The position numbers were made by a program, and so were the translations under genes. The notes beneath the pieces are model-generated. The model had not been told where the DNA came from and made no database searches. It was given only the letters and a program-made list of their open reading frames with translations. This document shows positions 1-60,000 of a stretch of 64,000 nt of DNA, piece after piece; position 1 is the stretch's first letter; each line of letters opens with the position of its first letter. Source of the DNA: Zetaproteobacteria bacterium (GTDB lineage: Bacteria; Pseudomonadota; Zetaproteobacteria; Mariprofundales; Mariprofundaceae); the NCBI GenBank assembly GCA_002753275.1, contig PEAA01000001.1, positions 1-64,000 on the forward strand, written 5' to 3'.

Positions 1-555
1 CAAAAAAATTGTAACGGAATCGCTTTTTATTTTTTTGGGGATTAGATTCCCTGGACTTTCTTTTCCAAATCTATGTTGGTTGGTTCTGTATATTATTCTT
101 GGTTTTAGGCCTAAGCTAATGAAATGGTTTAAAACGCATTCTTTTATAATAATTAGATTTGTTTTAAATTGATTACTGATTTTGGGAACGGAAGAACTTA
201 ATATTGTTTTTTTCTTCCCTTGCCATTCTTGAAATAGATTTTTTATTAATGAATACTCAAGTTCAAATAATACTTGTTTTTCTATCGAACATATTACTGT
301 ATTGGCATAAAATTGTATGTAAGCATAATCTATAGCATCTTTTTTTTCTCTATTATATTTTTTAGGTGTTGTCTGTATTTCATTAAAATATCGAGCAGAT
401 TTCACATCAATACTTCTTCCGTTTAATATAAAGTCAGTACTCTCACTATGTTTTCTTTTAATTTGATGACCAGAATACTGATATTCAAAAACATACTCTC
501 CAAATGAGCCAAATTGCGGGTTATTTAGTTTTTTTATAGCCTCAATTATCTCCAT
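1..555 (-). CDS. Partial AT-rich gene, candidate PD-(D/E)XK nuclease in an integron-cassette position
   Basis: An open frame of 185 codons runs from an ATG at 555 to the left edge without a stop, so the C-terminus is missing. An AAAAGG ribosome site lies about 9 bases upstream. I do not recognise the protein as a whole. Residues E20, D41, D50 and K52 form an E...D-x8-D-V-K pattern, with hydrophobic residues before D50 (TDFILNGRSIDVKSA). This is the usual active-site layout of PD-(D/E)XK nucleases such as restriction enzymes and related phage or plasmid nucleases. Base composition is far more AT-rich than the rest of the window, which suggests transfer. The ATG follows an attC-like core by 17 bases, the usual layout of a cassette gene. 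The nuclease fold is inference from the motif only; presence of a gene is well supported. Confidence 0.7.
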   Translation of the reverse strand, partial: MEIIEAIKKLNNPQFGSFGEYVFEYQYSGHQIKRKHSESTDFILNGRSIDVKSARYFNEIQTTPKKYNREKKDAIDYAYIQFYANTVICSIEKQVLFELEYSLIKNLFQEWQGKKKTILSSSVPKISNQFKTNLIIIKECVLNHFISLGLKPRIIYRTNQHRFGKESPGNLIPKKIKSDSVTIFL

Positions 556-572
556 AATGACTGACCTTTTGT

Positions 573-602
573 GTATAACGCTCAAGCTGTGGAGCGCGCG
601 CC
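573..602 (-). other. attC (partial): Right half of a probable integron attC site
   Basis: Read on the minus strand, a GC-rich arm (GGCGCGCGCTCCACAG) leads into CTTGAGCGTTATAC. The final GTTATAC resembles the R' core (GTTRRRY) and CTTGAGC the L' box of attC sites. Cassette genes begin just downstream of this core, as the ORF at 555 does. The left half (R'', L'' and the rest of the stem) is absent because the IS3 relic begins at 603. No integrase gene is in the window. Call rests on motif and position, not on a folded structure. Confidence 0.5.
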
Positions 603-642
603 GGGTAATCCCCCCATTTTTAACCGAAGTTAAAAGTAGAGG

Positions 643-1484
643 TTATGCAGCTAACACTCGTTTTTGAATTGGAGTTATGCCACCGATGGCCATATTAGGT
701 CGCTCATTATTGTATGTCCATAACCATCGAGTCGCATGTTCCTGAACTTGTTCAATGCTTTTGAAAATGAACTGCGCCAACCAATCATACCGAACTGTGC
801 GATTATAGCGTTCAACATAGCCATTTTGTTGTGGGTTTCCTGGCTGGATAAAATCCAAAATAATGTCGTTATTTTCAGCCCATGCTTTAAGCAACTCGCT
901 GATATATTCTGGGCCATTGTCACTACGAATACGCTTGGGTTGGACTCGCCAATCAATGATCTGATTCAGTGCTCGAATGACACGCAATGCAGGCAGAGAA
1001 AAGTCAGCTTCGATCGCCAGTCCTTCACGATTAAGGTCATCAATGACATTGAATAAGCGGAAACTTCGACCATCACCAAATTAATCGTGCATGAAATCCA
1101 TCGACCAGCATTCATTGATTGCATCAGGCACCATCAGAGCGTCTGGCTTGTCTCGCTTTAACCGTTTCCTTGGTCTGATAGGCAAATTGAGTTCAATTTC
1201 CCTGTAGATGCGATACACACGCTTATGGTTCCAGCCAAAGCCTTTCACATTACGCAGATATAAAAAGCATAGTCCAAAACCCCAGTGGATCTGATTCTGG
1301 GTGAGCCTGATTAGATTGAGTCCCAATCTGCAATAATTTCATTTTCAGGTTGCAGTTTGGATTCATAGCGATAACAGGTTTCACTAATCGTAAATGCGCA
1401 ACAAGCAAGACGGATACTTACTCTTTCACTACGAACTGCCTTCTTTGCCATATCTCGTCGCTCTGAAGGCTTTACCACTTTTTT
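643..1484 (-). pseudogene. IS3 orfB transposase (DDE), broken
   Basis: The frame opens through the slippery run A-AAA-AAG at 1478-1484, the classic -1 frameshift signal joining orfA to orfB in IS3 elements. It reads on through an HTH-like N-terminus (MAKKAVRSERVSIRLAC). After ENEIIADW an 8-base insertion (GACTCAAT, near 1315-1325) breaks the frame. The next piece (1081-1326) holds the first catalytic Asp in CWSMDFMHD and then a TAA at 1081-1083. That TAA is one base from CAA, so it looks like a C-to-T nonsense mutation. The remaining piece (643-1080) holds the second Asp (RSDNGPEY) and the catalytic Glu ([10 protein letters not shown]). All three catalytic residues survive but cannot be made as one protein. 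Confidence 0.85.
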
Positions 1485-1679
1485 GCCATCGACTCCTGAA
1501 TGATTTCATACTTAAGGCGCTCTTCAGAATACATTCGTTTCAAACGACGATTCTCAGCCTCAAGCTCTTTCATGCGGGCACCATTGATGCGTCCATGCCA
1601 CCATATTTGCTGCGCCATTTGTAAAATGATGCCGAGCTCATGCCATGTTCACGACAGAGCTCAGGAACGGGGATTACCC
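1472..1679 (-). pseudogene. IS3 orfA fragment
   Basis: Starts mid-gene with VIPVPELCREHGMSSASFYK, the helix-turn-helix end of an IS3 orfA. A missing base near the GGMDAS segment shifts the frame; the coiled-coil part (MKELEAENRRLKRMYSEERL) continues in another frame and ends MAKKW-stop at 1472. The N-terminal third is absent. Confidence 0.8.
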
Positions 1680-1681
1680 TC

Positions 1682-2857
1682 TCAACAATAACTCCCGGCA
1701 GCATAGCCAGAAGACCATGCCCATTGAAAATTAAAGCCGCCCAAATGGCCCGTTACATCGACCACTTCTCCGATGAAATAGAGGTTGGGATGATGTTTGC
1801 TGGCCATGGTTTTGGATGAAAGATGGTGGGTGTCCACACCGCCACGGGTCGCTTCAGCGGTTCGGTAACCTTCTGTTCCGCTTGGTTTTAATTGCCAACC
1901 GTGCATCTGTTGTGAAATTTTAATGATCGATGGATGGGAGAGTTGGCGTAATTCCATCTGCTCGGGAATATGACCCATGCTGATGAAGAGGTTGATGAGT
2001 CGTTTGGGCAGCAGGGTGGCCAAGTAGTTGTGAAGATGCTGTTTGCTATCACGAAGCTGTTCAAGGTTGTCTTGCAAATTTTGCCCTGGCAAGAGATCGA
2101 TGGTGATAAAATCGCCGGGTTGCCAATAGGATGAAATTTGTAAAATGGCCGGCCCCGATAGCCCGCGGTGGGTGAAGAGCATTGCTTCGCAAAAATTGTG
2201 ATTTTTGTAATGAACGGCGATGGGAATGGCGATGCCCGCCAATTGTTCCAATGCCAATTTTTCTTTGCCTGTGAAGGTGAGGGGCACCAGTGCTGCCGCC
2301 GTTTCTACACATGGAATATCAAACTGTTTGGCAATACGGTGCCCAAAAGGTGAAGCGCCAATTTTGGGCAGTGATAAACCGCCCGTGGCAATGACTAGGG
2401 CATGTGAATGAAAGCTTCCTTGATGACTCTTGATTTCAAAATGTGGATCATGGTATCGCACGGCATCGATGTGACATTGCAATTGAATCTCAACACCCAG
2501 TTGTTGGCATTGCTTGGCAAAGAGATCGATGATTTGCTGTGCCGAGTCATTGCAAAAAAGCTGACCATGATCCCGTTCATGGTATTCGATACCCGCTTGT
2601 GTGATAAAGTCGATAAAGTCGTAGGGGCTATAACCCGCCAACGCAGATTTTACAAAGTGAGGATTTTGGCAAAGGTAGTGGCTGGCATCGGTATGTAGAT
2701 TGGTGAAATTGCAGCGCCCGCCACCCGAGATGCGAATCTTTTTCCCCAGTTGATCGTTGTGTTCGAGGATAAGAACCCGTTTGCCTCGTTTGGCAGCCGT
2801 GATGGCACACATCAATCCGGCCGCACCAGCACCGATAATACAGAGATCGTAACTCAT
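1682..2857 (-). CDS. HI0933/BaiN-family NAD(P)/FAD-dependent oxidoreductase
   Basis: A 391-residue flavoprotein. The N-terminal dinucleotide-binding motif is GAGAAG at residues 9-14, followed by GKKIRISGGGRCNFTN, a signature of the HI0933 (YhiN/BaiN) family. The C-terminal GGFNFQWAWSSGYAAG is the conserved end of the family. The substrate of most members is unknown; a few anaerobes use relatives for bile-acid reduction, so I assign no reaction. The gene stops two bases after the IS3 relic begins, so its last residues (SYC) may have been replaced by the insertion or deletion event. It lies 38 bases downstream of malQ on the same strand and may be the last gene of that operon. No clear ribosome site precedes the ATG. 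Confidence 0.85.
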   Translation of the reverse strand: MSYDLCIIGAGAAGLMCAITAAKRGKRVLILEHNDQLGKKIRISGGGRCNFTNLHTDASHYLCQNPHFVKSALAGYSPYDFIDFITQAGIEYHERDHGQLFCNDSAQQIIDLFAKQCQQLGVEIQLQCHIDAVRYHDPHFEIKSHQGSFHSHALVIATGGLSLPKIGASPFGHRIAKQFDIPCVETAAALVPLTFTGKEKLALEQLAGIAIPIAVHYKNHNFCEAMLFTHRGLSGPAILQISSYWQPGDFITIDLLPGQNLQDNLEQLRDSKQHLHNYLATLLPKRLINLFISMGHIPEQMELRQLSHPSIIKISQQMHGWQLKPSGTEGYRTAEATRGGVDTHHLSSKTMASKHHPNLYFIGEVVDVTGHLGGFNFQWAWSSGYAAGSYC

Positions 2858-57001: not shown

Positions 57002-60000
57002 GTGCATGCTCCTTCTCAGCAGAGTGTTGTTCGGCCATATCTTTTAAGGCGCTGCGATAATCGACTGGAATCACTTTGACAAATTTACCTGCATAATCAT
57101 TCCAATGGGTCAAAATTGTCTGTGCTTTTTTAGAGCCCGTTAACGAGGCATGCCTTGAAATAAGCGTCAATAAGATCAATTGATCATTTTGTGACAGTGA
57201 GTGTTTGATATCAATGCGTCCATGGGCTTCAAGATCAGCACCTTGATGATCCCACTCCTCAAGCGCATCCGCCTCGGAAATGATGGGCTCAAGTTCAACT
57301 TGTGCCAAATTGCAGCGTGAGGAGAAGGTTGATGATTCGTCAAGAACATATGCAATCCCCCCCGACATCCCCGCCGCAAAGTTGCGCCCTGTTTCACCAA
57401 GAACAACGACGGTACCGCCCGTCATGTATTCACATCCATGATCGCCAACACCCTCAACCACAGCGGTTGCGCCAGAGTTGCGTACGGCAAAGCGCTCGCC
57501 ACCAATACCATTGAAATAACATTCACCAGCAATGGCACCAAAGAGTACGGTATTGCCCACAATGATATTTTCATCAGCTGCAATCGGAGTTTGATGGGGG
57601 GGGCGAATAATGATACGGCCGCCAGAGAGACCTTTACCCACATAGTCATTGCCTTCACCGGTTAAGTCGATGGTGATACCGCGGCTTAACCAAGCACCCA
57701 AACTTTGACCTGCGGTTCCATGTGCTTTGATATGAATGGTATTGTCTTCTAAACCTGCGTGACCATATTTTTTTGCAACCTTACCTGAGAGCATAGTGCC
57801 AAAACTACGATCCACATTGCAAATTTTAGTATTGATCACGACAGGCTGTTTCGATTCAAGCGCAGCGCTTGCTTCAGCAATCAATTTATTGTCGATCAAC
57901 TGCGCCAAACCATGGTCTTGTGTTTCACAGTGGTAAACTGCGGCATGGGGCTGATCAACCTTATGAAACATCGGGGTTAAATCGAGCCCCTGTGCTTTCC
58001 AGTGCAGAATTGCTTCATTGGTATCCAACATATCCACACGGTTAATCATCTCTTGATAGGTTTTAAAGCCAAGCTTGGCCATGATTTCACGGACTTCTTC
58101 AGCGAGGAACATAAAGAAGTTCACCACATCTTCAGGTTTGCCAACAAACTTTTTGCGCAAATCAGGGTCTTGTGTTGCAACGCCAACAGGGCAGGTGTTG
58201 AGATGACACTTACGCATCATGATGCAACCCTCTGCTACCAGTGCAATGGTTCCAAATGCAACTTCATCGGCACCCAAAAGGGCAGCAATGACGACATCGC
58301 GGCCAGTGCGCATCTGTCCATCGGCTTGTAGGCGGGTACGGCCACGAAGACGGTTGAGTACAAGCGTTTGCTGGGTCTCGGCCAGACCCAATTCCCATGG
58401 TGAACCTGCATATTTAATGGAAGTGAGTGGAGATGCACCGGTTCCGCCATCGTGACCAGCAATCACAACATGATCGGCATGGGCTTTGACCACACCTGCG
58501 GCAATAGTGCCCACGCCAATTTCAGAAACCAGCTTCACACTGATGTCTGCATCGGTATTGGCATTTTTCAAATCAAAAATGAGCTGGGCTAAATCTTCAA
58601 TGGAGTAGATATCATGGTGGGGTGGTGGAGAGATTAATCCTACACCTGGTGTTGAATGACGGACACGACCAATACGCTGATCGACCTTGTGACCAGGAAG
58701 TTGACCACCTTCACCCGGCTTGGCACCTTGTGCCACTTTAATCTGAATTTGATCGGCATTGGCAAGGTATTCCGCGGTTACCCCAAAACGACCCGATGCA
58801 ACTTGCTTAATTGCTGAGCGCATCGAATCCCCGTTTGCAAGAGGAGTAAAGCGTTCTGGCTCTTCACCACCTTCACCGGTGTTGGATTTTCCACCCAACC
58901 GGTTCATGGCAATGGCCAATGTTGAGTGTGCTTCATGGGAGATTGAACCAAACGACATGGCGCCTGTGACAAAACGCTTGACGATTTCAGTAGCTGGCTC
59001 AACTTCATCGAGATCAATCGACACGCCATCATTGAACTTAAACATGCCGCGTAGCGTCATCAATCGACCGCTTTGATGGTCGATCAGTTTGCTGTACTCT
59101 TTAAAGAGTGCGTAGTTTCCACTACGCACTGCCTGTTGAACTTTGGCAATCGCTTCGGGTGTTAAAAGGTGCTCTTCACCGCGAACGCGCCAAGCGTAGT
59201 CGCCACCAACATCAAGTGCATGTTTGTAAATATCAAGATGACCAAATGCATCGCGGTGCCAGCGAACGGCTTCTTCGGCTATTTCACTTAGGCCAACCCC
59301 TTCAATTTGTGTCGGGGTACCAGTGAAGTATTCCTCTACAAATTGTGAAGAGAGGCCGATTGCTTCATAGATTTGCGCCCCACAGTAGGATTGATAGGTT
59401 GAGATACCCATCTTTGACATCACTTTATGAATTCCTTTGCTGACCGCTTTAATGTACCGTTTGTTGATCTCATAGGTTGATAAATCAACAGGAATAAGTC
59501 CCGTGCGTTGCATGTCGCTTAAGGTTTCAAATGCCAAATAAGGGTTAATGGCTTCTGCGCCATAGCCTGCCAGTGTGGTGAAGTGGTGAACTTCTCGGCT
59601 GCTTCCTGTTTCAATCACCAAGCCAGTTTCAGTACGCAGACCTTGACGAATCAAGTGTTGATGAACCGCACTGGTCGCTAATAGAGCGGGGATCGCCAAG
59701 TGATCTTCATCCATCTCCCGATCGGAAAGAATGATGATATTGTCACGGTTTTTGACTGCTTGTTCAGCTTGTGCGCAGAGTGTTTGCAAAGCTGCTTGCA
59801 TACCTTCTGCACCTTCCGTTGCGGCGTAACAGACTGAGAGGGTGATAGAACGGAATGCACCACTGGTATAACGATCAATATGACGAATTTTTTCAAGATC
59901 TTCATTGGTTAAGATTGGTTGACGCACTTCAAGGCGCATCAAAGGTGATTCTTCGCCCAATCCCAAAAGGTTAGGACGGGGACCAATGATAGAGGTGAGG

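Follow-up and report, generated by a model that had tools for sequence, protein, structure and literature searches.

In a working integron, a cassette is moved when the integrase IntI acts at the R' core of a complete attC site whose bottom strand is folded, recombining that strand. The ORFs of an integron generally point away from attI, with every R' core preceding the next cassette. A cluster of attC sites without an integrase is known as a CALIN, and IntegronFinder 2.0 requires at least two attC sites to recognize one (PMC9024848). Similar attC sites are also known to complicate assembly, splitting integrons across contigs (PMC9024848), and the broken contig ends described here fit that effect.

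The DNA analysed here, referred to below as the window, is a stretch of 64,000 nucleotides (C1:1-64000) from a 1.86-Mb assembly of 55 contigs, and its base 1 is a contig end. Its left edge resembles a CALIN or a stray cassette in having an R'-like core, a short leader with a possible ribosome-binding site and an AT-rich orphan ORF, with no integrase beside them, in a genome that bears an integron. Unlike a CALIN, it has half of one site visible. We judge it slightly more probable than not (roughly 0.55) that the edge is the start of an integron cassette with a truncated attC. The features of the edge are listed in Table 1.

Table 1. Features of the window edge, and attC-bearing contigs of a genome of the same family (G023)
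Feature	Coordinates or contigs	Strand	Remarks
AT-rich orphan ORF	1..555	(-)	at least 184 codons, ATG at 555-553, runs off contig; candidate cassette gene
17-nt leader	556..572	(-)	contains AAAAGG, a possible ribosome-binding site
Candidate attC right half	573..603	(-)	stem and L' part GCGCGCTCCACA, followed by a spacer and the R' core GTTATAC (573-579)
IS3-family relic	604..1678	(-)	both terminal repeats, orfA-end internal deletion, broken frames, no matching target duplication
Flavoprotein gene, normal C-terminus	1682..2857	(-)	chromosomal side of junction
G023 attC contigs	C9, C22, C43, C52, C55, C97, C104, C117, C125, C126		L268-L277

The orphan ORF at the contig end

The initial annotation had described an AT-rich ORF whose ATG lies 17 bases after the core, and both the spacing and the shift in composition were borne out. 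The ATG at 555-553 is the best start for this ORF, which has a GC content of about 28% (27.9% for bases 1-552) vs 47% for the part of the window past the IS. Among the readable contig ends of the genome, the one at base 1 is by far the most AT-rich (GC 0.278; the next is 0.38). The leader resembles the start of the cassette at L092, GCGTTATACGCAAAAGG...ATG. The encoded protein has no recognised relatives: searches of PDB, phage, plasmid, viral and family collections returned no significant match, and no relatives were found in cassette arrays. Comparison with 78 genomes of the same class (mostly of one family) and 399 of the phylum gave a single weak match (E=3.5e-5 over 49 aa); the frame that it hits is short and its surroundings are unrelated. 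A nuclease-like motif, TDF...DVKS, was spotted in the ORF by eye only. The single-sequence structure prediction for this protein had a mean pLDDT of 37 and was set aside.

The IS3 relic and a possibly rearranged junction

The IS3 relic that had been reported next to the motif is present, with its boundary at 604 rather than 603, as placed by aligning the terminal repeat GGTAATCCCCCC with those of intact IS3 elements. Its terminal inverted repeats read GGTAATCCCC...GGGGATTACC, the transposase pieces (rve, HTH_21) lie in broken frames from about 640 to 1700, more than 100 bp are missing from the orfA end, and by the criteria of the IS3 family the element belongs there. Intact IS3 elements on plasmids of Legionella, Marinobacter and Catenovulum have terminal repeats GGTAATCCCCCC...GGGGGGATTACC, of which GGTAATCCCCCC is common to the relic, and are about 70% identical to it at the DNA level over the body of the element. 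In contrast to these relatives, the relic has broken frames and an internal deletion and lacks a matching target duplication; by our own reading, 4-bp target duplications flank two of the three intact relatives compared, with none at the window copy. An IS that lacks a target duplication suggests that the junction is rearranged, so that the sequences on its two sides, including the flavoprotein gene that we read as HI0933-like, may not always have been neighbours. An intergenic region of another contig (L082; G000:C51, 13537-13601) holds an isolated 65-bp piece of the same IS3 end with 91% identity.

The candidate attC half-site

The attC-like motif that had been placed at 573-589 on the minus strand is there letter for letter (CAGCTTGAGCGTTATAC) and has a single occurrence in the genome. 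As for the GTTRRRY ending ascribed to attC sites, GTTATAC is one base off the strict form, and the same GTTATAC ends real attC sites in other genomes of the phylum or family (G023 and G034). The L' box is imperfect (GCTCCACA vs GCCCCTCA) and correctly spaced; the L part of the half-site contributes 1-7 bits depending on the model, and about zero or a negative score with other training. The segment 573-602 had been expected to fold or align as an attC. No hairpin above shuffles was found in 573-603. The segment resembles the right halves of attC sites from the same class, and the edge site aligns without gaps to two sites on contig C12 (GCGCGCCCATGAGCCCGGTCGTTAGCT, GCGCGCCCCTGATCCCGGGCGTTAGCA, GCGCGCTCCACAGCTTGAGCGTTATAC). 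The left half (R''/L'') is absent, the sequence past 603 being that of the IS, and there is no complete attC at the edge. Near-identical motifs at C10:30355 and at position 59866 of the window were rejected as candidates, both lying inside coding genes. The exact string AGCTTGAGCGTTATAC has nine matches in viral contigs, none with an attC nearby.

The edge site was scored against real attC sites, some collected at loci whose IntI proteins are related and others in genomes of the same family. A core of the form GTT[AG][AGT][AG]Y lies at most 45 nt upstream of 63 of the 1115 ORFs of the genome and its GCGTT[AG][AGT][AG]Y form upstream of six, so the core motif alone is a weak indication. Those six ORFs can be counted in favour of a rival explanation that we hold to be somewhat short of even odds, namely that horizontal transfer brought in the edge ORF as an ordinary AT-rich gene (of an island, phage or restriction-like kind), now beside an IS3 relic, and that its core arose by chance. 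The two near-identical motifs inside coding genes and the lack of a complete attC nearby count in the same direction.

Position-specific scoring matrices trained mostly on other classes placed the edge site below all real sites, with 27-108 equally good sites per 64 kb. With right-half matrices from the same family, built at several block lengths after removal of redundancy, it scored 12-18 bits and fell in the low tail of the real sites, 2-6 of 23 of which score no higher, while sites as good as this one number 0.2-1.2 per 64 kb; because several model variants were tried, these better figures carry some selection. An equally good site by the same-class right-half profile lies just upstream of only one of the 1101 other ORFs. 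The family model strongly favours a right half over a left half, and the left-half reading fails. Both the right-half profile and the spacing match cassettes of the same class, which argues against a chance core. An independent HMM trained on other genomes only (R2) gave the edge site 6.1 bits and E=2.1 in the window, where it ranked third best, with about two equally good sites per 64 kb, and this result again fits the chance-core explanation.

A search of the whole genome with a whole-site attC covariance model (R1) found nothing at E<=1 (best 13.8 bits, E=9.3); this negative is weak because R1 also misses the C12 sites described below. Applied to the truncated edge site, R1 was uninformative, since a real attC cut in the same way also scores about zero. 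With sites as good as this one occurring about 0.2-1.2 times (matrices) or about twice (HMM) per 64 kb, sequence alone does not settle the identity of the edge site, and the scores are suggestive of an attC right half rather than proof of one. Large-contig interiors were covered by the genome-wide searches only, and the cassette checks extended over the readable sequence, to which C41-C43 do not belong, being N throughout (about 2.75 kb each); N also fills some other stretches.

An attC-bounded cassette on contig C12

The right-half profile pointed to the left end of C12 (L044; G000:C12, 1-2280), where a cassette bounded by attC sites (C12:121-2136) lies between two right halves that the whole-site model missed. 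The stretch C12:6-121 is about 96% identical to one beside a group II intron ltrA gene in pIMP4_000369 and other class 1 integron plasmids, and the intron breaks the first C12 attC at the position where those plasmids have it too. From this context and general knowledge, we take C12:6-121 to be the end of a group IIC-attC-type intron. C12 thus joins an intron end to the remainder of an attC, as do class 1 integron arrays with such an intron; unlike in those arrays, the intron on C12 is truncated where the contig ends, and resistance genes were not seen beside it. The second right half was found genome-wide at E=0.019, with AGCTAAC as a candidate R'', and two bases further on there is a remnant of the same type of IS as at the edge. 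Taken singly, the two C12 sites fold no better than shuffled sequences.

The cassette carries a 260-aa gene that fits no known family, overlapped by a C5-cytosine methylase gene; the pair makes a restriction-methylation-like integron cassette. It reads toward chromosomal genes, as expected of the far end of an array. A relative of the pair, with a 260-aa protein 74% identical and a methylase alongside, is found in a viral contig (L289; IMGVR_UViG_3300025876_002246, 712-2579), where no attC sites occur near the two genes.

The integrase on contig C29 and the polarity of the edge

An IntI gene is located at the end of contig C29 (C29:3249-4184; L013); it matches TIGR02249 with 477 bits vs a cut-off of 265, so the genome carries an integron, a further point against a chance core at the edge. 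The protein is 89% identical to IntI proteins of Gallionella and other Nitrosomonadales. The host belongs to a different group from these closest relatives, a sign of horizontal transfer. Shared ends of 121 bases join the left end of C29 to C10 and the right end of C1 to C25. No joining partner was found for the left ends of C1 and C12 or for the right end of C29, which does not set them apart, as most contig ends lack one. In a genome of the same family (G023), 48 attC matches were recorded, most of them on small contigs (Table 1), as in a large, fragmented cassette array.

The initial annotation had taken the edge for the edge of a cassette array, with an integrase or more cassettes to the left. 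In favour of that proposal are the IntI gene, the attC sites and cassette elsewhere in the genome and the likeness of the half-site to right halves of the same class; against it, the edge offers half a site, which by sequence alone scores near chance over the window. Since the R'-like core and its ORF are read leftward, the attI and integrase side would lie to the right; on the left this orientation predicts more cassettes at most, and no integrase. To the right of the core there is the IS and then the chromosome. This polarity is at odds with a C29-C12 array, a point that also favours a chance core. Junctions of attI with a cassette, too, have a GTT core at their end and a cassette ORF after it, and here the attI side would fall to the right, at the IS. 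That the core at 573-579 is such a junction, its integrase side lost at the IS, is nevertheless very improbable: loci of close relatives of the resident IntI read TGTTTTCTAT... before their first core vs CCACAGCTTGAGC here, and there is no intI near the edge.

Because the integrase and a clearer cassette are on other contigs, the truncated cassette favoured here would stand apart from the main array as a stray cassette end. A stray or rearranged cassette also describes the edge better than the terminus of a C29-C12 array does. The R' side of an attC at 573-603 on the minus strand would be followed by the 17-nt leader and the AT-rich orphan gene, and the rest of the attC would have been lost at the IS3-family element. 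Having lost its left half, the edge site should no longer recombine. We infer the identity of the half-site as an attC and of the ORF as a cassette gene; the edge is probably a stray gene cassette, an ordinary element of an already known kind.

It is rather unlikely, in our estimate, that the edge belongs to a larger integron that has been rearranged, in a lineage whose integrons seem little described in the open literature searched. Such an integron would hold restriction-like cassette genes, among them the C12 methylase pair and possibly the nuclease-like orphan at the edge, and its array would have been broken up by a group IIC-attC-type intron as well as by IS3 remnants.

Implications

As seen on C12, whole-site attC models can miss real attC sites that are interrupted or half-lost. 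If the edge is indeed a truncated cassette, it would illustrate the decay of cassette arrays in which attC sites are cut by IS elements. An integron-bearing group of Pseudomonadota with small genomes would then also gain an orphan cassette gene, along with a restriction-methylation-like cassette.
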